From Planctomycetaceae bacterium (GTDB taxonomy: Bacteria; Planctomycetota; Planctomycetia; Planctomycetales; Planctomycetaceae), in the NCBI GenBank assembly GCA_021732785.1, contig JAKFUG010000031.1:1-64000 (forward strand): a DNA stretch of 64,000 nucleotides. The letters run 5' to 3'. Numbering within the stretch: the stretch's first letter is position 1; each line of letters starts with the position of its first letter. A model generated the notes under the pieces. That model was not told the DNA's origin, did no database searches, and saw nothing but the letters and a program-made list of their open reading frames with translations. Below, in pieces: positions 25,430 through 41,548 of this stretch. The position numbers were made by a program, and so were the translations under genes.

Positions 25430-28400
25430 TCACGTCCCCGGTTTGCGTTTGCGGCCGGTGAGCGGGTCGCGCCATTGCCGCAGTTGCTGCTTGGTTTCCC
25501 GCAGGTTGAGCAGACTCGGCGGCAAATCGAGGTCCGCGTCGAGATCGAGCGATCCAATGGATTGGTCGGCATGCTGCACGCGGTTGAGTTCGTCCTCGAG
25601 CTGTCGCAGCCACGGCGGGACTTCCAATCCCGACCCCGATGTCGACTTCAGATAATCATCGACCAGTTTCTGCAACAAACGGAACGGGTCGGGGCGATGG
25701 GAAATCGCTCCGCGCGATTTCGGCGGCGGTTCGGGCGAAGTGCTGGCACACGCCGGGCCAATGAGCGCGGCCATCGTGTTCACCGAAAGTGGTTTCACGA
25801 ACCGTTCGCGGAGATGGTTGCTGATCGACGGCAACCGCATGCCGTATTGCCGTTCGAGCTTGGTGAGATCGGCTAAATGCCGGTCGGCCATGTCTTCCGT
25901 CTTCGTGGAAAACACGTCTTCCCAAATTTGCGCGGCGTCATCCTTTCCCGTGCGGGACAACACCTCATGCGCCAGGCTGACCGGCACGAGGTTCCACGCA
26001 TCGCGGTCGTAGGTCGTTTCCAGCCGGAGAAAATCGAGCAGCGAATGAAACACTTCGCCGTAATCGGATTGCGTGGTCGTGGTGTTGTATTCGAGGAACC
26101 GGTCGTACCGTTCGACGACGATCTGATAAATCAAACGGAGATGATCGATCGCATCTTCGCGCGTGATTTCACCGTCTTCGATGTCGCGCAGCAGCTTGAG
26201 GGGATGCAGCGGATCCTCATTCTCCAGCAGGTAATCCAGAAACCGGTCGACGCCCTGATGCAGGATCGCGCGCACATTACCGAGCGTGAGTTGCCGGGCA
26301 TGGAAGAGTTCGCCGCCGTATTTCTGAATGAACGTTTTGGTCTCGTCCCACACGCCGTCGAGCTTCAACGCTTCCACGGTCGACAACCGCATGGTGCTGC
26401 TATGTTCGAGCCATTGATCGAGGTACAACTCGACAATCGACCCGACGAATTCGATCAACTCTTCATCCGTGAACCGACCCGACTTCCACCGCGTGGATGC
26501 CTGAATGACGGCTTCCAGCGAACTTTTCAGCGCGATGCGGAAGAGGCGGTCGTACTCGGTGACCGCCAAACCCTGCGGACGCGAAGCCCGCTCCATTTGT
26601 TGCGCCGTTCGCAGCACGTGCCAGGTTTCCCGTAGCAAGCCGAGCTTCGGCAGATGACGCAGCAGAAACCGCATGAGGGCCTGCATCGTCCGGGCGGCGA
26701 GAATCTGCGCGGGAGCACCGCCGTGATCGAGCGGCACGTACAACAGCGGCTCTTTCTTCAGCGCCCGCAGCAAGCCCGGCAGCGCTTTGCGGACTTCCGC
26801 CGCGTCGCCACGCACCAGGGAACGGAAGAGGGCCAGACTGCTGGCTTCCACTGGCCCGCGGTCACCCTTCGGCGGACTTTCCGGCAACGCGGCCCACAAG
26901 ACCCACTGCGCCGTACGGAACGACACAATCGTCGACAACGTCACCTGCACCAGATACAGCTTCGTCTGCAACTGGGCATCATATTCGACGTTGGCATCGT
27001 GATCCCCCGCGGGTGCGGAGAGTTCGCGCTCCCACAGTTCGTTGCACAACCGTTCGAGATCGCGCTGCACATCGACCACGCGGCTTAACCACACGCCGAG
27101 GTGTTCCACCGCCTCGTTGGGCAGCGATTCTTCGGCGGCGCTTCGGCCGCATAAAGATGCGGCCACCTGCCATAACCGGGCGAGTGTTCGCAAGAACTGC
27201 AGCCGCGGCTCTAGCAACCGTTCAAAGACTTCGAATTCACCGGCGTCAGGGATCCCGCCGCGGTCGTCGGCCGTATCGCTGAACTGGCCATCGTCGGCGC
27301 TGTCCCGGAACGTGACCCCTTCGTAAGCCGCCCCGTAGAGTTCGCGGTCGGGATCGTCGTCTTCGGGGCCTTCATTCGTTTCCTGAGTGATGTTGCCGAC
27401 GGCCGCCTCATTCAAACGCGGCACCAGCCAGAAATCGCCGGCGTTGGCTTCCAGATAGGCGAACAACCGCCGCAACAACGGCCAAATCTGCGAATTCGCC
27501 GCGGTGGCTTTCTCGGCACGTTCGGTGCTGGCGAGATCGCCGAGAGAATCAATCCAGCGGCTGAGCAAGCGATCGAACGACAACGGTCCTGCCACAAGGC
27601 CCACGTCATCGGCTTGCGACAACCATTGCATCAACAAGCCCAGCGACGCCACGAGATCGTTGCGATCGAGCAGGGCGGAAACCACCTGCGCGTAAGCCCG
27701 CGCGGTCTGAAACTCCTGCACGTGCTCGCGCCAGAAGGGAATTTGCCCGGCGGCTTCTCCGGCAGCACGCCATTCGGCCAGTGCCCGGGCCACCCGCCGC
27801 GCGGAATCGAGATGATCCTGCGCAAGCACCGTCGGCAAATCCTGCACGGTCACCGAACCGAACCGGTCCCAGAAATCGGCGAAGCGTTCAAACCGCCGGT
27901 CGACATCCGTAACAATCAGCGTCATCGCCCGTGCCGCGGCCTCTTCCAGGACGCGGGTGTAGCTTTCGAGAATCCCTTCGACCAGTTGCAACAGCACTTC
28001 GATCCGCTGGTCGGGAACGCTGTCTTCGCGAGTGGTGAAGAGCGGGAATTGGCCTTGAAAACCGAGGATATTCCACGGATCGACCAAAGCGCCACAGGCA
28101 ATGCCGCGATGCAAATTGTCTTCCGCTTCACCGAGTAACGTGACCGCTTCGTTAACTTTTCCCTGATCGACGGCTTGCTTGATGGCGGCGATCCGCCATT
28201 GGATTTCGCTTTCAAACCGAGCCGACGCCGAGGGGATGATCGCCGCTTGTTTCCGGGCCGCTTCCGGTCGGGCCATGCGGGCATACAGGTACGCCACGTG
28301 CCGGCGCTGGACCTGCTGCGTTCCATACTGCGCGAGATAGAAGTTGAGATATTGCCGGACGTGGCCGAACGGTTGCTGGGTGGTTTGTGCATGCTTGTTG

Positions 28401-29401
28401 AGCCGCTTGGCCCGCGCACCGGTAGCGACGGCCATGAGCCGCGCGTAGAACGCATCGCGCTGTCGGGCCACGCGCGGCAACAACGTGGTCAGCGACACCG
28501 TCGAATCGTGCGTCCCCGGACCGGAACCGCTGATCGCCGATGCCATGAGGATGGTTCCCCCCAACACTGCGGCGGCGTCAAAGAGAACTTCCTCCATCGA
28601 GACCCGTTTCTGTTCGCCGATCCATTGTTCCAGCGCGTCGAGAATCACCTTGCGAATGATGAACCGCCGATAGCGGCCCTTGATGTCGATCTGGTGCGGG
28701 TCCCATTCGCCGAAGAGGTAATTCGTTCGTTTGTTCGCGGGATGCAGATGATCGTGCGCGCGAGGATCGAGCGCCAGTTCCTGCATGTTATCGAGCGTGA
28801 AGTGGGCTTCGGCCAGCAGTTCTTCCGGCATCGCGCGGAGCAATTCCAGCGATCGCGAGAGAACTTCCCGGAATGGTCCACAGGCAATCCCCGCCCCTTG
28901 CAGATAAAGCGGGAACGGGCGGAAACGTTCGTGCGGATACGCCTGCATCCGCTGGCCGTTCTCCAGTACGGCGACGGGGCGGTAACCGATGAAGTCGTTC
29001 AGCCGGTCGAGCGTCCGTTCGACAATCAACGCGGTTTCGTCCCACGGTCCGCCTTGCTCCAGCAGCAGTTCCCACACCCGGGCGAGGAAGAACGGCTGGT
29101 GAAAATCCTCATCGGAAAGATGAAACAGCAGATCGCGATGGAACTCACGGTACGCCGGCAGGATGTGATCGAAGGCCAGCGTGATGACGGCCTTGGCCTG
29201 GCGGCTATCCTCAAACGCCGGCGCTTCCTCTCCCAGTTGCGACAGCGATTTCAGCAAGGCCGGACCGAGCTTTTTCCACGTCAACCGTTCGGTAAGGTCG
29301 TTGACCAACCGCTGAAAGGACGGGTCCGGCCGCCCGCCCGAGAAGTTCAGGTAGCCCAGCACTTCGCGCGTGGCGGCAAGATCCTCGGGACGACGTTTCA
29401 A
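25430..29401 (-). CDS. very large hypothetical protein, alpha-helical
   Basis: 1323 residues, no signal peptide and no obvious membrane helix. Most of it is predicted helix. An acidic linker lies at about 683-720 (EGPEDDDPDRELYG, SADDGQFSDTADD). No ATPase, nuclease or TPR motif is visible. The C-terminus is basic (DPLTGRKRKPGT). Tryptophan and aromatic residues are spaced as in a helical scaffold. It stands divergent, 386 bases away, from two ExbD/TolR-like membrane proteins, and this context suggests one system. Base composition is like its neighbours. It is likely planctomycete-specific, an inference that a database search would settle. Confidence 0.6.
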   Translation of the reverse strand: MKRRPEDLAATREVLGYLNFSGGRPDPSFQRLVNDLTERLTWKKLGPALLKSLSQLGEEAPAFEDSRQAKAVITLAFDHILPAYREFHRDLLFHLSDEDFHQPFFLARVWELLLEQGGPWDETALIVERTLDRLNDFIGYRPVAVLENGQRMQAYPHERFRPFPLYLQGAGIACGPFREVLSRSLELLRAMPEELLAEAHFTLDNMQELALDPRAHDHLHPANKRTNYLFGEWDPHQIDIKGRYRRFIIRKVILDALEQWIGEQKRVSMEEVLFDAAAVLGGTILMASAISGSGPGTHDSTVSLTTLLPRVARQRDAFYARLMAVATGARAKRLNKHAQTTQQPFGHVRQYLNFYLAQYGTQQVQRRHVAYLYARMARPEAARKQAAIIPSASARFESEIQWRIAAIKQAVDQGKVNEAVTLLGEAEDNLHRGIACGALVDPWNILGFQGQFPLFTTREDSVPDQRIEVLLQLVEGILESYTRVLEEAAARAMTLIVTDVDRRFERFADFWDRFGSVTVQDLPTVLAQDHLDSARRVARALAEWRAAGEAAGQIPFWREHVQEFQTARAYAQVVSALLDRNDLVASLGLLMQWLSQADDVGLVAGPLSFDRLLSRWIDSLGDLASTERAEKATAANSQIWPLLRRLFAYLEANAGDFWLVPRLNEAAVGNITQETNEGPEDDDPDRELYGAAYEGVTFRDSADDGQFSDTADDRGGIPDAGEFEVFERLLEPRLQFLRTLARLWQVAASLCGRSAAEESLPNEAVEHLGVWLSRVVDVQRDLERLCNELWERELSAPAGDHDANVEYDAQLQTKLYLVQVTLSTIVSFRTAQWVLWAALPESPPKGDRGPVEASSLALFRSLVRGDAAEVRKALPGLLRALKKEPLLYVPLDHGGAPAQILAARTMQALMRFLLRHLPKLGLLRETWHVLRTAQQMERASRPQGLAVTEYDRLFRIALKSSLEAVIQASTRWKSGRFTDEELIEFVGSIVELYLDQWLEHSSTMRLSTVEALKLDGVWDETKTFIQKYGGELFHARQLTLGNVRAILHQGVDRFLDYLLENEDPLHPLKLLRDIEDGEITREDAIDHLRLIYQIVVERYDRFLEYNTTTTQSDYGEVFHSLLDFLRLETTYDRDAWNLVPVSLAHEVLSRTGKDDAAQIWEDVFSTKTEDMADRHLADLTKLERQYGMRLPSISNHLRERFVKPLSVNTMAALIGPACASTSPEPPPKSRGAISHRPDPFRLLQKLVDDYLKSTSGSGLEVPPWLRQLEDELNRVQHADQSIGSLDLDADLDLPPSLLNLRETKQQLRQWRDPLTGRKRKPGT

Positions 29402-29787
29402 CGGAGCCAGCCTTTTCAGAAAACAAATGATCCTTCAAGGTCATAGATTAAACAGTGATTGGCAAAGGGGATAGAGAACGGCGACGCGAAATGGTGCGCG
29501 GGAAGAGGAATGGAAAGTGAAAAATGGGGGGCCCGCGGGACGCTCGGTTCGGCGAAAACTGCCGACATCGCGAAATGATTCGCGGGCGATGTTCGATGGA
29601 CGCTTGCCGCTTCGCAGAATCACAACGCTGTAAATCATTTCCAGAAAAGCAATTAGCGTCCTGCAAAGCGGCAAGCGCGGGTGATTGGATTCCTCTTCGC
29701 TCAGACAAGTTGAATCGACCTGCGCAATTGTGCCGATTATAGGGAGCGGGAACGTTCTATCCTCCTTTTGATCGAGACCCACCGGCG
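29402..29787. other. divergent intergenic region, 386 bases
   Basis: It lies between the large hypothetical gene (minus) and the ExbD-like gene (plus) and must hold their promoters. It contains an inverted repeat at 29601-29617 and 29661-29677 (CGCTTGCCGCTTCGCAG with one mismatch). The region is a possible regulatory site shared by both directions. A TTATAGGGAG near 29735 is a weak -10-like sequence for the plus gene, without a clear -35. Confidence 0.5.
29601..29677. repeat. inverted repeat CGCTTGCCGCTT(C/T)GCAG
   Basis: Seventeen-base arms 29601-29617 and 29661-29677 pair with one mismatch and surround a 43-base loop. A single arm of the same sequence recurs at 41984-42000 upstream of rpmF. 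The position between divergent promoters makes it a possible operator-like or mobile remnant. Confidence 0.7.
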
Positions 29788-31986
29788 ATGAGTCGCCATC
29801 GTTCGATGCACCCTGCGATTCAGTTGTTTCCGTTCCTGGCGGTCCTCGTCAGCGTGATGGGGGCGCTGATCTTTTTGCTACTGGTCACCAGCAAACGCAT
29901 TCCGCAAGTGGCGGTGGCCCGCGCCCGGGCGGCTCAAACCAAAGTCGTGACGGCACCGGCGCAAAATGTCGGACCGGTTCTCTCGATTCCCGAATTGGAA
30001 TCGTCTCCCACCGATGCCGACTTCCCCGAAATGCCGCTCGCGGATCTGGACGAAGAAGGCCCGTCATTGGCCGAGTTAGAAGCCCAGAAGCGCGACGCCG
30101 CGCACGAAGCCGAACAGGCCTCGCTCATCGACCAGTGGCGTCGCCGCATCAAAACGATGCAAGGCAATCGAGACGAAGTGGCGGCCAACGTGGAACGCCA
30201 GAAGCTTCTCATGACCGCCGCCGAACGCCAACAGTTAAAAATGCTCGCGGAATTGCAGGAACTCGAACGCAAGCTGGGCAGCCTCACCGGGAAGATCACG
30301 GCCGGCTCGATGCACGCCGGTCATGCCGACCGGGAACGGATTCAACTGGAACAGCGCATCCTCGGTTTGCGGCGGCAGTTGAAATTGACCGCCGATCAGC
30401 AACGTGTGGATTCCGGGAAGTATTCGATTGTCCCGTTTGATGGCAAATCGGGCACGACACGGCGGCCGATTCTCATCGAATGCACGTCCACCGGGTTTCG
30501 GTTTGTCCCCGAAGATGTCGCCATTTCCGCGGCGGACATCGAAGGCTTCACCGAGCGTCAGAACCCGCTGCTCGCCGGAGCGGCCGCGCTCACGCAGTAC
30601 TGGAATCAGGTCAATCAGGAACAGGGCGGGGCGACACCCGACACGCAACCCTACGTGTTGTTGATCGTGCGTCCCAGCGGCACGCTCGGATATTACGTCT
30701 CCGTTCGCTTGCTGGCGGCGCTCAAACAACAACACGGTTATGAACTGGTTGCGGAAGATGTCGACCTGAAATGGCCCGCGGTGAATGCCGGCGCTCAGGC
30801 CGCGTGCCGCGCTGCCGTGCAGACCATGCTCGCCCAGCGCGATTCCGTCGCGCTCAACCCCAACGGTGTGCCGAGCAGCGGCGAACCCGGAATCGGTGGC
30901 GGTCGAGGCGGCGCAGGGGTTGCCGGACGGGCAAGCAATGGGACCGGCGGCAGTCCGGGAAATCGCACTGCCATCGGCAATGGCGGAACGGGCAGACCGG
31001 GCGGCGGCACCGGGACGGGGCAGCGCAAGGGCTTCGAGCTTTCTGACCTGGACCCGCCGTCGAACGAAGTTGGCGACCGCAGTTGGGAAGATCCCAGCCG
31101 TTTCGGCGGACTCGAACATCGGCGCGACAAAACCAAAGCCACCGGCAACGGAAACAGCGGCAATGGGGCCAGCGCAGGCGGAAACATCCCTCGTGGAAAT
31201 AGCGGCGGAAGAACTCCCGGCAATGCGATTCCGGCCGAAGGGAGAAGCGACAACGAAACGGGCGAACCCATCGCCAACGAATCCAATCGCGCCGTTCCGG
31301 TGAAGACGACTTCATCCACGCAACCCAACTGGACCGCGCGGCCCACTTCCACTCAGCGCGTCGCGCCCCATCCTGACACCGCCGCCGAACCCACCGATGA
31401 TGGCCCAAGCCCGACGACATCCGAACTACCCGCCGGTTCAACCGCACCACGCAACTCGTCCGTCGCGGCCCCAATGGTTCCCAGGCCAACGGGGTCACGA
31501 CCGACTGGTGGCCAAGGGGGACAACGTCCCCCGCGGAATGTCGGTTCCCCACCGAATGGCGAACAACGCCTGGCTCGTGGACCGAAGCGGGGCAACGGTC
31601 AGGATATTCCCTACGAAATGCTGCAGCACCGTCGCTGGGGTCATTTCGAAGAAGGGGCCAACATCGGTCTCGAAAAACCGGTGACGATTCTAGTCGACGC
31701 CGAGCAAATCATCGTCGCCGATCAATTGATCATTCCCATTCGCCCTGGGGCCAGCCGTAACGAACTCTTTGATCAGTTGCTCGCGGCAATCGATGAAAAT
31801 TCGGCGACCTGGGGCAAAGCGGCCGCGGGATTCTTCTGGGTGCCGTCGTTGCGGTTCATCATCAGCCCCGGCGGCAATCAGATTTATGATCGCCTCGCTC
31901 CGCTGGTCATCCGCAGCGGGCTGCGGGCCGATACTGAGTTCACGCTGGAACGACCGCAGGCATTATTGAAAGGGGGCCGACCATGA
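29788..31986 (+). CDS. ExbD/TolR-like single-TM protein with coiled coil and long linker
   Basis: 732 residues. The N-terminus is MSRHRSMHPAIQLFPFLAV, then one membrane helix to about residue 33 ending in VTSKR. Residues about 90-200 form a helical coiled coil (EQASLIDQWRRRIKTMQGNR). A folded segment at about 210-350 contains RRPILIECTSTGFRFVPEDV and YVLLIVRPSGTLGYYVSV. A Gly/Asn/Pro/Ser-rich linker spans about 360-610. The last about 115 residues form a second folded segment (EKPVTILVDAEQIIVADQL). The layout is that of a proton-channel stator subunit, but position 18 is Ala where ExbD has Asp. It overlaps the next gene by four bases. Confidence 0.7.
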   Translation: MSRHRSMHPAIQLFPFLAVLVSVMGALIFLLLVTSKRIPQVAVARARAAQTKVVTAPAQNVGPVLSIPELESSPTDADFPEMPLADLDEEGPSLAELEAQKRDAAHEAEQASLIDQWRRRIKTMQGNRDEVAANVERQKLLMTAAERQQLKMLAELQELERKLGSLTGKITAGSMHAGHADRERIQLEQRILGLRRQLKLTADQQRVDSGKYSIVPFDGKSGTTRRPILIECTSTGFRFVPEDVAISAADIEGFTERQNPLLAGAAALTQYWNQVNQEQGGATPDTQPYVLLIVRPSGTLGYYVSVRLLAALKQQHGYELVAEDVDLKWPAVNAGAQAACRAAVQTMLAQRDSVALNPNGVPSSGEPGIGGGRGGAGVAGRASNGTGGSPGNRTAIGNGGTGRPGGGTGTGQRKGFELSDLDPPSNEVGDRSWEDPSRFGGLEHRRDKTKATGNGNSGNGASAGGNIPRGNSGGRTPGNAIPAEGRSDNETGEPIANESNRAVPVKTTSSTQPNWTARPTSTQRVAPHPDTAAEPTDDGPSPTTSELPAGSTAPRNSSVAAPMVPRPTGSRPTGGQGGQRPPRNVGSPPNGEQRLARGPKRGNGQDIPYEMLQHRRWGHFEEGANIGLEKPVTILVDAEQIIVADQLIIPIRPGASRNELFDQLLAAIDENSATWGKAAAGFFWVPSLRFIISPGGNQIYDRLAPLVIRSGLRADTEFTLERPQALLKGGRP

Positions 31987-33143
31987 GTGCCCGCCATCGT
32001 GGTGAATTGCAGTTCGGCTCCGATTCGTTCCTCGACGTCGTGTGCAACATCGTCGGCGTGCTGATCATTCTGCTTGTGATGGCCGGGATGCGGGCCAATA
32101 ACTCGCCCGTGATCCTGCCGGATGCGGACGCCACCGCCCCTGAAACCGGCGAAGAAACCGCACCGTCCGCGGCCCCGGCGATGCTTCCGCCGTCATTCCT
32201 TGCCGATGCCGCTGAAATCCCCACCGGTGAATCCCCCGAGGATTTGCCTTCCGCGCCCCTGTTCCAGTCCGATGACGGAGAAACGCTCCCACCGGTGGAA
32301 CCGCCCGCGGAGTTTGTCGCCGCGGCGAAATCGCTCGAAGAAGAGATTCGATCTCTCAATGAAACGGGCCGGTCGGCGAAGCGGAAACTCACCGAGACAC
32401 ACGAATCGCTGGAGAACATTGAACAGCGATTGCAGGCCATGAAAGCCATCTACGAACGCAAAGCCACGGATGCGGTGGTCGTCGAACAACAGCAAGCCGC
32501 GACAACTACGGAGATGGAGAATCTCCGCACCACCATTTCGCAATTGCAGGGCGAATTGCGGGAAATTCAGGCCCAACCGCCGTCCACGGGCAGCCAGATC
32601 GAACACCGCATCACGCCCCTCAGCCGCGTGGTCTCCGGCGAAGAACGGCACTTTCAACTCTCGAACAACCGCGTCGCGATTGTCCCGATGGAAAAGTTCA
32701 AGGACCGTTTGAAGGATCAGGTGGAGCGCAAGAAGGACGTCCTCGCCAAAACCCGGCAGCATCACAGCCAGATTGGTCCGATCGACGGGTTCGTGCTGAA
32801 GTTCATCATGCAGCGTGAAAACCTGTCGGGGCTGGACGAACTTCGCAACGGCCCGGGCATGTACCGCATCAGCGTCGTGCATTTTGAAATCGAACCGCAG
32901 CGCGATCTCGTCACGGAGAGCGCAGACGAAGCCCTCACGCCGGGATCGAAATTCTACGGCGCGATTCTGGACGCCCCACCCGAGACCACGATGACATTCT
33001 GGGTCTACCCGGACAGCTTCGAAATCTACGGCAAGCTGCGAAAACTCTGCCACGACGACAATTTTCTGGTCGCCGGGCGTCCGTTGCCGGAAGGGATGCC
33101 GATCGCCGGTTCGCCCACGGGTTCACGGTCGTCGGGACAATAG
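31983..33143 (+). CDS. ExbD/TolR-like single-TM protein, Asp-bearing partner
   Basis: 386 residues. After MSARHRGELQFGSDSFLDVV comes one membrane helix (VCNIVGVLIILLVMAGM). Asp18 sits at the helix start in the same place as the conserved Asp of ExbD/TolR/MotB. A coiled coil spans about 105-195 (KSLEEEIRSLNETGRSAKRK, EMENLRTTISQLQGELREIQ). The C-terminal 150 residues are folded and contain YRISVVHFEIEPQRDL and TMTFWVYPDSFEIYGKL. The ATG overlaps the preceding stop by four bases. A MotA/ExbB-type channel partner is not in the window, so it may be elsewhere. Confidence 0.7.
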   Translation: MSARHRGELQFGSDSFLDVVCNIVGVLIILLVMAGMRANNSPVILPDADATAPETGEETAPSAAPAMLPPSFLADAAEIPTGESPEDLPSAPLFQSDDGETLPPVEPPAEFVAAAKSLEEEIRSLNETGRSAKRKLTETHESLENIEQRLQAMKAIYERKATDAVVVEQQQAATTTEMENLRTTISQLQGELREIQAQPPSTGSQIEHRITPLSRVVSGEERHFQLSNNRVAIVPMEKFKDRLKDQVERKKDVLAKTRQHHSQIGPIDGFVLKFIMQRENLSGLDELRNGPGMYRISVVHFEIEPQRDLVTESADEALTPGSKFYGAILDAPPETTMTFWVYPDSFEIYGKLRKLCHDDNFLVAGRPLPEGMPIAGSPTGSRSSGQ

Positions 33144-38278: not shown

Positions 38279-38638
38279 GCCCGTGGTGTCCGAAAGTCGT
38301 GTTCTGCGTCTTCAGTCATTCTGAGCACGACGGGGAGCACAATACAAGGGATTGCCGGAAACCAATAAGTGGACAGGAGTTACGAAGCCAATACAGGCTT
38401 ATGACGATTCTGCGGGCGACTTCAGCAGCCGTGCAAGTGATCTAGCAGACCCACGCCAACTCTCGTACAATCCACGAGTTAGGAAAACGGGACTGCGATG
38501 CTGATGGCTTTCTGCTGCGTCCGACAGCCGTACTTCGCAAATTGAAGTTTGTTAACCGTATTTCAGAAAAATCTCCAAGTCGCCCGACAAGAAGTTCCGG
38601 TGGCGGGGAATTCAGTGAGTTTTTCGGCTTCAGGGACG
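38279..38638. other. 360-base spacer, no gene seen
   Basis: It separates the small minus-strand gene from the large plus-strand secreted-protein gene. A frame open from 38549 continues into the next gene but lacks a credible start before 38639. No strong promoter or hairpin was seen. Confidence 0.5.
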
Positions 38639-41548
38639 ATGCCGACGGAATCGATTCTAGCGTGCCGCGGAGAACGACTCGGCTGGTTAGCCGCGGTCGC
38701 GTTCGTCTTTATACCCGGCTCGCTTCCTGCCGCGGATCCGTTTCATGAACCGTTCGATGCCGCGGTAACGTCGTGGAAATGGAGCGATCCGGCCGGAGCG
38801 GTCCGAATCGTTCAACACGCACGGCAACGTGAACGGGGCTTACACGACGGGGCCGAACAGATCCGAATGATCGGCCGCACGGAAGGGACGCACGTTCGCT
38901 TCAATCACGCCACAACCCGGGCCCGTGTCTTCGAAGAATTGACGGCTAGCGTCCTCATTCGCTCGGATCAGCCGGGCTGGGCATTGGGAGTCGTGATTGT
39001 CCTGCCGAACGTGATCGATCCAGAGACGCAGAATCCACTGGAAATTGAACTCGCGGGAGACGTCTACAGTGCGGCCAACGTCGGCAAATGGCAACGATTA
39101 CAAGTCCAGACTCTCGACAGCCAGGTTCAGCAGCACATCATCCACCAGCGGGCTCGTCTGCGCAGCGCCTTTGAGCCGGGCGAAATGTATGTCGATCGCC
39201 TGGTGCTGGGCTGCTCTTTACCGAATCGTGAATGCGAAGTTCTGACCGATGATCTTCGCCTCAGCCCGATTGTGACGCCGTCGAGTGTCCAACCGGCAGC
39301 CGCGGTGACGTACTCCAGTGGTCCCGCCGTTCCCAATGTCTCGTTTCGGCTGGATCGCCTGCAGGTTGATGGCCGGCCGTTTTTTCCCCGGTTAGTGCGG
39401 CACCAGAAAGAGTCGGCGGAAGAACTCGCGACCGCCGGTTTCAATACCGTCTGGATTGCTGATTACGCCGACGCCTCGACACTGGCCGCGTTGCGAAAAC
39501 ACCAGCTCTGGGCGGCGGCGACACCACCACAACCGCTGGCGGAATCCGGCGATGCTTTGAGTTCCCGCACCGCCGGTCTGATTCCGTTTACCCCCACTAA
39601 TGACGCCGTTCTCTGCTGGATGCTCGGGACGCGTGTGGAAGGCAACGAACGGAGTCGATTGGTCCATTGGATCGAGCAAGTCGAAATGGCAGACCGTCGC
39701 CGCAATCGCCCGATTGCCGTCGATGTTCTCGGGGAAGAGCGGTTGTTTTCGCGTGATGTCGGCTGGCTGGGTTCGTCCCGGCATCCCTTGCAGACGACCT
39801 TTTCCCTGACGGAATACCGCGACTGGCTCGCCGAACGAAAGTCCTTCGCGCGACCGGGGGCCTTTTGCTGGACGTGGATTCAAACGGAACCGTCCCCTCA
39901 ATTGCGCTCCGCTGGCCCCAGCGATGGGGATGTACCGATGCTGGAACCGGAGCAGATCCGGCTGCAAACCTACGCCGCGCTGGCTGCCGGTTGCCGCGGC
40001 CTTGGATTCTGGACGACAACGCCGATCAACGATCCTTCACCGGCAGCCCGGGAACGGGCACTGATCCTCCAGCAATTAAATCTCGAACTCGGCCTGATGG
40101 AACCGTGGCTGGCCACGTCGGGTCATGTCGAGCGCATCGCCTGCACGGCGATCACACCGTCTTCGACAAACCCGTCACGCGATGTTCCGATCGGACGCTC
40201 GCTTTCCAACAACCTCGAACGGGAAGGGCAGCTCCGGGCCCATTCGCAACAACAGCGACAGCACGAACACCTGTCGGAAGACCTCTCGGCCTACGTTTTG
40301 CGGACGGATTACGGCACGTTGGTCCTGCCCGTCTGGCTGGAACAACAATCTCAATTCGCTCCTGCTCAAGCGGCTGCCCAGGAGGTGGTGATCACCGTGC
40401 CCGGGGCGGGCCAAACCGCGACGGCGTGGGAAATCTCCACCACCGATGTGTCCTCGCTGCCCAGTACGCGCGTCGCTGGCGGACGCCGCATTACGCTGCC
40501 GCGGCTCGATCAGACTACCATGATCTGGTTGACGAATGAGCCGAAATGGAAAGACAGCCTCGTGGAACGGGTGCAGGCCATCAAAGCCAGCAGCGCTTTG
40601 GCAAGCGTCGAACTTGCACGCCTGAAATTTGACCGCGTCGCCAAAGTTCATGAAGCTCTGCAAACGCTCGCGCCGTCCATTCCCGATGGTCCGCAATTAT
40701 TGGGTCGTGCCCGGTTGCGACTAGAGCGTGCCGAGGCCACCTTGCGGGCGAAGGATTACCACACCGCGCGATTGAATGCCTGCGAAACAATGCAGAGCCT
40801 GCGGATTCTCCAGCGCGCCCACTGGGAGGAAGCCGTTCGAACGCTGACGTCCCCGGTGAGTTCGCCCTATACCTTCTGCTTCCAGACATTGCCGCAGCAC
40901 TGGAAACTCGTCGCCGATTTTGGCCGCAGCCGCTCGCGCGATTCCCGCAATCTGCTTCCCTCCGGTGAGTTTGAGGATCTGGATACACTCATCGCCGAAG
41001 GCTGGAAGAATGAGCAAAATGTCCCGGACGAACTGCGGGCGAAAGCGGAATTGTTCCCGTCCGGGCGATCCAGCCGGTACGCGCTGCGGCTGGCGTGCGA
41101 ACCCGCGGCCGGGATCACGCCCCCACGTTATCTGGAACGGGCGGCTGTCACACTGACCACCCCAGCCATATCCGCTCGGGCTGGCCAGGTTTTGCACATC
41201 AGCGGTTGGGTGAAAATTCGACAACCCATTACGGGACATCGCGATGGGTTGATGATCTACGACAACCTGCTAGGCAAACCGGGCGCGCTCCGGTTTCATG
41301 AGGCAACGTCGTGGACCAAGTTTGAACTGCTCCGGGAACCGCGGGAAAGTACCGATTTGACGCTCACATTTTCCCTCTGCGGGATGGGAGATGTACTGAT
41401 TGACGATTTGCGGATCGTCCCGCAAGATCGCTGGCTGGAAGGGGCGACACCCGCCGAATCTCCGCGGGTCGAACCGGCTTCCGGCACCCGATTGTTCGAC
41501 CGCTTGCCGAAATTGCCATCGTTTTCGCCGCCGCGCCGGCAACCGTAA
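38639..41548 (+). CDS. large secreted protein, possible glycosidase-like barrel
   Basis: 969 residues from the ATG at 38639 with CAGGGA just before; a start at 38549 adds a non-signal leader. The signal peptide is GERLGWLAAVAFVFIPGSLPAADP. Residues to about 230 are beta-rich and end with a jelly-roll-like set (VDRLVLGCSLPN). The centre has GFNTVWIADYADASTLAALR, HQLWAAATPPQPLA and LAAGCRGLGFWTTTP, a pattern of strands and helices like a TIM barrel of cellulase or beta-galactosidase type. The catalytic pair was not identified. A C-terminal domain at about 820-940 resembles a carbohydrate-binding module (VLHISGWVKIRQPI, GMGDVLIDDLRIVP). Substrate unknown. Confidence 0.6.
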   Translation: MPTESILACRGERLGWLAAVAFVFIPGSLPAADPFHEPFDAAVTSWKWSDPAGAVRIVQHARQRERGLHDGAEQIRMIGRTEGTHVRFNHATTRARVFEELTASVLIRSDQPGWALGVVIVLPNVIDPETQNPLEIELAGDVYSAANVGKWQRLQVQTLDSQVQQHIIHQRARLRSAFEPGEMYVDRLVLGCSLPNRECEVLTDDLRLSPIVTPSSVQPAAAVTYSSGPAVPNVSFRLDRLQVDGRPFFPRLVRHQKESAEELATAGFNTVWIADYADASTLAALRKHQLWAAATPPQPLAESGDALSSRTAGLIPFTPTNDAVLCWMLGTRVEGNERSRLVHWIEQVEMADRRRNRPIAVDVLGEERLFSRDVGWLGSSRHPLQTTFSLTEYRDWLAERKSFARPGAFCWTWIQTEPSPQLRSAGPSDGDVPMLEPEQIRLQTYAALAAGCRGLGFWTTTPINDPSPAARERALILQQLNLELGLMEPWLATSGHVERIACTAITPSSTNPSRDVPIGRSLSNNLEREGQLRAHSQQQRQHEHLSEDLSAYVLRTDYGTLVLPVWLEQQSQFAPAQAAAQEVVITVPGAGQTATAWEISTTDVSSLPSTRVAGGRRITLPRLDQTTMIWLTNEPKWKDSLVERVQAIKASSALASVELARLKFDRVAKVHEALQTLAPSIPDGPQLLGRARLRLERAEATLRAKDYHTARLNACETMQSLRILQRAHWEEAVRTLTSPVSSPYTFCFQTLPQHWKLVADFGRSRSRDSRNLLPSGEFEDLDTLIAEGWKNEQNVPDELRAKAELFPSGRSSRYALRLACEPAAGITPPRYLERAAVTLTTPAISARAGQVLHISGWVKIRQPITGHRDGLMIYDNLLGKPGALRFHEATSWTKFELLREPRESTDLTLTFSLCGMGDVLIDDLRIVPQDRWLEGATPAESPRVEPASGTRLFDRLPKLPSFSPPRRQP

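Follow-up and report, generated by a model that had tools for sequence, protein, structure and literature searches.

We analyzed a stretch of 64,000 nucleotides from a Planctomycetaceae bacterium (GenBank assembly GCA_021732785.1, contig JAKFUG010000031.1; the whole stretch is called the window below) and followed up three genes in it, two of which probably encode parts of an ion-driven membrane motor. The first gene (25430-29401, minus strand) has a TTG start and encodes a protein of 1323 amino acids, here called the giant protein. A divergent spacer of 386 bp (29402-29787) separates it from two genes on the plus strand, P2 (29788-31986; 732 amino acids) and P3 (31983-33143; 386 amino acids), which overlap by 4 bases. 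An earlier note on this DNA had described this layout, and the open reading frames (ORFs) were confirmed at these positions. We judged the genes to be real from their homologues across relatives: the giant protein was found in 149 and P3 in 143 of 150 genomes of the order, and P2 could be aligned over 24 genomes.

P2 and P3 each have one membrane helix and a coiled-coil-like stretch, as the earlier note had proposed; for P3 this comes from a structural model and for P2 from sequence. The transmembrane (TM) helix of P3 (residues 13-39; 32019-32099, plus strand) contains an aspartate at residue 18 (codon 32034-32036) and is followed by a coiled-coil-like helix of 89 residues (109-197; 32307-32573) and a folded outer alpha/beta domain with a conserved C-terminal tail (about residues 205-386 in the model; mapped at 32625-33140, about residues 215-386). 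AlphaFold2 gave the P3 model a mean predicted local distance difference test score (pLDDT) of 83.4, with the long helix and the alpha/beta domain at high confidence. Simple arithmetic with 1.5 Å per residue indicates that this stalk would be about 13 nm long if straight. In P2, also on the plus strand, an N-terminal hydrophobic segment (residues 13-35; 29824-29892) comes first, followed by a stretch that resembles a coiled coil. A middle domain (about residues 217-350; 30436-30837) and a C-terminal part (about residues 600-725; 31585-31962) are both conserved and are joined by a glycine-rich linker; they bear a faint likeness to each other (hhalign probability 36). The single TM helix of P2 was assigned from the hydropathy of relatives and from the 24-genome alignment, and the TM profiles of P2 and P3 are alike (hhalign probability 71).

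In most relatives, a gene for a channel protein lies beside the P2-P3 pair. Among 20 giant-protein loci that were extended, six had divergent P2 and P3 genes, and all six had a gene between the giant gene and P2, encoding a protein of 404-536 amino acids with two to four predicted TM segments. A further 19 genomes of the window's family were chosen by their P3 match; in 18 of them this gene was 5' of P2 (16 from the ORF list and two by tblastn), G034 being the exception. At all 11 pair loci fetched from families other than f1 and f69, a channel gene likewise lay with P2 and P3. The usual operon in relatives is channel-P2-P3. All 10 of the channel proteins scanned matched PF01618 (MotA/TolQ/ExbB), with 36-53 bits against a cut-off of 22.9 bits.

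There was no channel gene beside the pair in the window, and the window's spacer, where several relatives have the channel gene, held no remnant of one. The genome from which the window comes has seven places that match PF01618, and a single one of these, on contig C17, is close to the channel, as a divergent homologue (32% identical over residues 37-323). The suggestion in the earlier note that the channel may be encoded elsewhere agrees with these findings: the PF01618 channel lies beside the pair in most relatives, and the window's genome has a divergent homologue on another contig. Below, the usual channel is called type A and the divergent, C17-like channel type B; one or the other was found in 145 of 150 genomes of the order. 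Faulty assembly is an unlikely cause of the missing channel gene, because the same channel-less arrangement occurs in L223, with a giant protein 95% identical to that of the window, and in three Schlesneria records. G010, from the window's genus, keeps type A at the pair and lacks a close type B.

The position of the type-B gene varies. It is directly 3' of P3 in seven genomes (G051, G064, G046, G107, G120, G139 and G142), and 5' of P2 in two (G119 and G110); in G130, the gene and P3 stand tail to tail. It is unlinked to the pair in six genomes: that of the window (G000), G034, G043, G047, G080 and G105. Three more genomes (G038, G045 and G054) presumably combine a pair that has no channel beside it with a type-B-like gene elsewhere. 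Apart from shadow ORFs, no neighbour was common to more than two of the six unlinked type-B loci.

Channel and P3 appear to have been mostly kept or lost together outside family f69. A profile of the channel was run on 72 genomes of the class (16 of the 92 with both the giant protein and P3, 20 of the 30 non-f69 genomes without P3, and the 36 genomes of f69). Among the genomes outside f69, all 16 with P3 had the specific channel (E 2e-67 or better), as did two of the 20 without P3 (Fisher's exact test with kinship ignored, 4e-8); these two were G021 and G418, in which P3 was perhaps undetected. The specific channel was detected in none of the 36 f69 genomes. Both TM motifs and the adjacent channel were absent at all seven f69 loci inspected, a joint absence that a role of the motif in serving the channel would predict. 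The P2 and P3 relatives at these loci (L173-L179) keep a hydrophobic N-terminal segment and are perhaps a natural, channel-uncoupled version of the pair. Co-occurrence had been named as a check on the original proposal; the PF01618 channel does travel with P3 outside f69, and the giant protein does not.

The TM motif of P3 (xFLD) had its aspartate in 62 of 62 loci outside f69, some genomes being counted twice, as a named record and as a handle. Judging from its position and the operon context, Asp18 probably corresponds to the ion-binding aspartate of MotB, ExbD and TolR. The matching motif in P2 of the window is FPFLA, with Ala18 (29839-29841) at the position of the P3 aspartate. We compared this P2 residue to the type of channel on the same fetched locus for 61 of 132 loci, keeping those that had P2 and P3 on the locus and a P3 segment of at least 250 amino acids and using identical P3 rows once. 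With a type-A channel on the locus, the residue was Ala (39 loci), Thr (two) or Ser (one) in 42 of 42 cases; with type B it was Asp in 11 of 11. At loci with no channel, it was Ala in six, including the window, Asp in one and unreadable in one (L308).

The link between P2 residue and channel type gave a Fisher's exact value of 1e-11 in the raw counts (kinship ignored) and was seen within one genus, g25, where two fetched genomes had type A with Ala and six had type B with Asp. On a quick tree of P3, in which 16 of 58 inner branches were open, the channel type switched at least four times and the P2 aspartate changed at least five times. A sign test that took kinship into account found agreement in four of four independent pairs (p = 0.125; four pairs cannot reach p = 0.05). 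For the window's genome, G034 and G080, the channel found away from the pair was type B, against the rule.

We consider it probable that P2 and P3, as two distinct B subunits, make up the axle of an ion-driven motor in the inner membrane, one of the MotA/TolQ/ExbB kind, and that in the window's genome the ring is most likely filled in trans by the type-B channel on C17. In such a motor, a ring of channel subunits would receive one helix each from P2 and P3, whose long helical stalks and folded parts would be held in the periplasm. P3 would supply the ion-binding aspartate. Where P2 has no aspartate, as in type-A systems and in the window, the axle would be left with a single ion site rather than two, and it might make half as many ion steps per turn if it rotates. 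Ion flow through the PF01618 ring would energize the axle, and the stalk or folded parts may act on the cell wall or the outer membrane.

An extension of this model, which we regard as possible and somewhat doubtful, is that the system comes in two gears. Type A would work with a one-site P2-P3 heterodimer and linked type B with a two-site axle. Swaps of the channel, of which there would have been at least four in one family, would go together with the second aspartate being gained or lost. The window would then be in a third state, with an unlinked type-B channel and a one-site axle. That a single aspartate comes and goes with channel type, even inside a genus, allows questions about such motors to be tested on close relatives.

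Several observations weigh against the proposed motor. No ExbD, TolR or MotB profile matched P2 or P3 among the matches listed (for P3, the best 25 of 39 from Pfam and the best 25 of 31 from PADLOC). In hhalign comparisons with six ExbD-like proteins that the window's genome also encodes, the probabilities were 0.09-17 (the profiles were small), and the model of the P3 outer domain gave no ExbD match (Foldseek found nothing under E 0.04). The stalk lengths of P2 and P3 did not covary (37 loci; Spearman 0.26, p = 0.11). A distant channel homologue (E 9e-17 to 9e-37) was present elsewhere in 35 of the 36 f69 genomes. The window itself breaks the residue rule, combining an unlinked type B with Ala in P2, as do L223, L104, L224, L227 and L247. 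With seven PF01618 places in the window's genome, a different channel could serve the pair. In addition, an unlinked type-B channel may serve an ordinary ExbD: in G105, the unlinked type-B gene has a divergent ExbD gene (PF02472, 89 bits) 0.5 kb away. This G105 locus is L318 5106-7333, and G105 keeps type A beside its pair. The nearest relative of the G105 ExbD in the window's genome (49% identical) is on contig C1, not on C17.

The description of P2 and P3 as ExbD/TolR-like stands in part. They resemble subunits of the MotB/TolR/ExbD kind in topology, in the P3 aspartate and in the channel context, and they match no ExbD/TolR profile. PF02472 did not match P2 or P3 in the window or its relatives, among the matches listed, and neither protein is among the seven PF02472 places in the window's genome. 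Failing PF02472, P2 and P3 are not filed as ExbD/TolR proteins. The channel fits a known kind. Profile searches of the locus had a divided outcome: the channels of relatives matched PF01618, and the giant protein, P2 and P3 had only coiled-coil-like or sub-threshold matches in Pfam, NCBIfam and PADLOC, among the matches listed. Homology of parts of P2 or P3 to ExbD/TolR was considered and rejected, with low hhalign probabilities and no Foldseek match under E 0.04; profiles of sequences from the PDB were likewise set aside, giving coiled-coil proteins or chance hits among the matches listed. In the VIA comparison, the best row for the P3 model was YqgF (RNase-H-like; Z 5.8, root-mean-square deviation 3.1, 85 residues aligned), in a range common for this tool; the VIA listing shows no ExbD row, which excludes nothing. 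A search for MotB relatives reports, in a section of PMC12505986, that ExbD and TolR typically fall below detection thresholds.

Other explanations would divide the roles differently. P2 could be a transducer like TonB or TolA that stays outside the ring, with only P3 homodimers entering the channel. The window's P2 has no aspartate and has a long low-complexity linker followed by a C-terminal part, an architecture described for TolA and TonB in a section of PMC12204202. The likeness between the P2 and P3 TM helices argues against a transducer of this sort, as does the aspartate at the matching position of P2 in every type-B locus compared, and we consider it rather unlikely. A different possibility concerns the lineage of the window, in which the pair could be idle or could work without the C17 channel, either with another PF01618 channel or free of a channel, as the motif-less f69 pairs may be; the C17 protein would then serve an ordinary ExbD. 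The absence of a channel beside the window's pair, the window's departure from the residue rule, the seven PF01618 places and the ExbD gene next to the unlinked type B of G105 all favour this explanation. It is harder to reconcile with the P3 aspartate and the full-length P2 and P3 that are kept in both the window and L223 (P3 82% identical), with the recurrence of a channel-less pair and a type-B-like gene elsewhere in G034 and presumably in G038, G045 and G054, and with the finding that only one of the six unlinked type-B loci has an ExbD-like gene. We judge it unlikely.

The earlier note proposed that the giant protein, P2 and P3 may together be one machine. The genes are linked in the window's family: among 53 named loci whose 5' flank spans 6 kb or more, 23 have the pair divergent from the giant gene. 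As a control, the elongation factor G (EF-G) gene was 3' of the giant gene at eight of the 59 loci whose flank on that side reaches 3 kb or more, and the 43 loci with both flanks had 19 linkages to the pair and five to EF-G (these counts are for the best 80 of 138 giant loci). Within the phylum, the giant and P3 families also both center on one class. Against this, among 158 genomes of the class the giant protein was found in 120 and P3 in 125 (E 1e-10 or better), with both in 92, the giant protein only in 28, P3 only in 33 and neither in five (Fisher p = 0.25, odds ratio 0.5). For the genomes without a match, 20 of 38 (giant protein) and 20 of 33 (P3) were listed and the others were deduced. 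All 33 genomes with P3 only belong to f69 (36 genomes); the 28 with the giant protein only are from f70 (24), f73 (two) and the window's family (two, G005 and G021). The refuting outcome named in the earlier note was observed, and in both directions: P3 lacked the giant protein in 33 of the 36 f69 genomes, and the giant protein lacked P3 in 28 of the 158. G005, a single-contig genome, keeps the giant protein, and neither P3 nor the channel was found in it. None of the 11 channel-P2-P3 loci fetched from other families showed linkage of the giant gene to the pair, and 19 giant loci outside the window's family had no pair, bar two weak, coiled-coil-level matches to P2. At seven of these 19 loci, the divergent neighbour was instead a homologue of a BamB-like PQQ propeller gene. 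Because the giant protein and P3 occur independently, we rejected the three-gene machine, which now seems very unlikely. We judge the giant protein to be a separately conserved protein that merely adjoins the pair and lies outside the motor, and we attribute the linkage to common ancestry, possibly along with shared regulation. This removes a false lead, in that the motor need not explain the giant protein.

The giant protein is predicted to be a large, soluble, helical protein (an alpha-solenoid) of a conserved family. A model of residues 11-1210 was almost wholly helical with a small beta part (pLDDT 84.9; predicted TM-score, pTM, 0.75). We claim no specific relative: the best VIA match, to a karyopherin (Z 11.2, root-mean-square deviation 7.5, 223 residues aligned), was under the tool's mark for helical repeats, and the best Foldseek match had an E-value of 3e-4 with a TM-score of 0.10. 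The BamB-like propeller genes that face the giant gene outside the window's family (L201, L202, L206 and L208-L211) are divergent from it and 8-426 bp apart; the Pfam scan covered one of the seven. In a sample of 196 genomes from the phylum, the giant protein was detected in 12 of 12 members of the window's family, in three of three other members of the class and in none of 181 genomes outside the class. Strong P3 matches were in the window's family, G005 excepted, and in the rest of the class; elsewhere in the phylum there were weak matches, mostly to the coiled-coil part, and a few cousins of the TM region (for example G328 and G311). Within the phylum, to which the sampling was confined, the giant protein was restricted to one class, and P3 was so apart from these outside matches.

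The spacer between the giant gene and P2 contains the inverted repeat that had been pointed out in it, with 17-nt arms at 29601-29617 and 29661-29677 (94% paired, 43 nt between the arms; 29601-29677 in all). The right arm is altered in the nearest relative, L223, in which the spacer is 65% identical (236/363). The spacer folded no better than shuffled sequences (z = -0.28), and a search for promoters and terminators in it found none. The genes that flank the locus were judged ordinary. The EF-G gene is 3' of the giant gene, and genes for an alpha/beta hydrolase, a TPR/MerR protein and serine hydroxymethyltransferase lie beyond P3, the TPR/MerR gene being 2 kb past P3 on the opposite strand. 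An ORF of 999 amino acids (38549-41548, plus strand) had no match in Pfam, NCBIfam or PADLOC.

Some additional loci showed related arrangements. In L308 (4246-7098), a P2 homologue has a P3-like N-terminus (SDSFLDVLANMVG), as if the TM part had been exchanged, and that genome has a type-B-like channel on another contig. There is an apparent paralogous second system, with a channel, in L321 (3080-6205), L322 (5398-7315) and L319 (2412-5867). It includes a short P2-like protein with FPFLS in L321 and L322 and a P3-like protein with LLDT or LMDT in L321 and L319, again with the aspartate in one partner only. In the window's genome, an ExbD-like pair near a PF01618 gene (G000:C25:7314-8056; L006 and L007) has TM segments without the usual Asp motif, and the other ExbD-like pairs (C2 and C19) have the motif in both members.

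We found no paper on the channel-P2-P3 system in the open PMC literature, and one may exist elsewhere. Compared to known systems, the proposed motor shares with the MotAB flagellar stator a channel and a one-helix B subunit with a TM aspartate (P3), and differs in that P2 and P3 have no OmpA/MotB domain among the matches listed. With ExbBD and TolQR it shares the PF01618 channel and, in P3, one N-terminal TM helix with an aspartate. Unlike them, it has two different B subunits, for which no PF02472 match and, for the modelled P3, no ExbD fold match was found among the matches listed, and an 89-residue modelled stalk helix. The co-encoding of channel and B subunit that characterizes 5:2 motors is present at most relatives' loci and absent in the window. 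Loci of the PVC (Planctomycetes, Verrucomicrobia and Chlamydiae) group, as described in a section of PMC12204202, combine a tolQ-like gene and a heterologous tolR pair with genes for TPR and vWA proteins. These TPR-tolQ-tolR-tolR-vWA loci resemble ours in that planctomycetes have a tolQ-like channel with a heterologous tolR-like pair next to it. Our P2 and P3 are long and have other outer parts, and no vWA match was among the matches listed for ten window proteins (18.3-41.5 kb); the two sets are set apart by description and may overlap. For the AglRQS gliding motor of Myxococcus xanthus, passages of the relevant papers state that AglQ and AglS both match PF02472 (PMC3169522), that both are said to carry the TM aspartate (PMC9389320), and that it is not known whether the TolR-like proteins pair with each other or each with itself (PMC9389320, PMC3169522, PMC3858216). 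P2 and P3 differ from AglQ and AglS in having no PF02472 match and, for P2, often no aspartate. The AglRQS motor, as presented in those passages, likewise combines one MotA/TolQ-type channel with two different TolR-like partners in one gene cluster (PMC9389320, PMC3169522).

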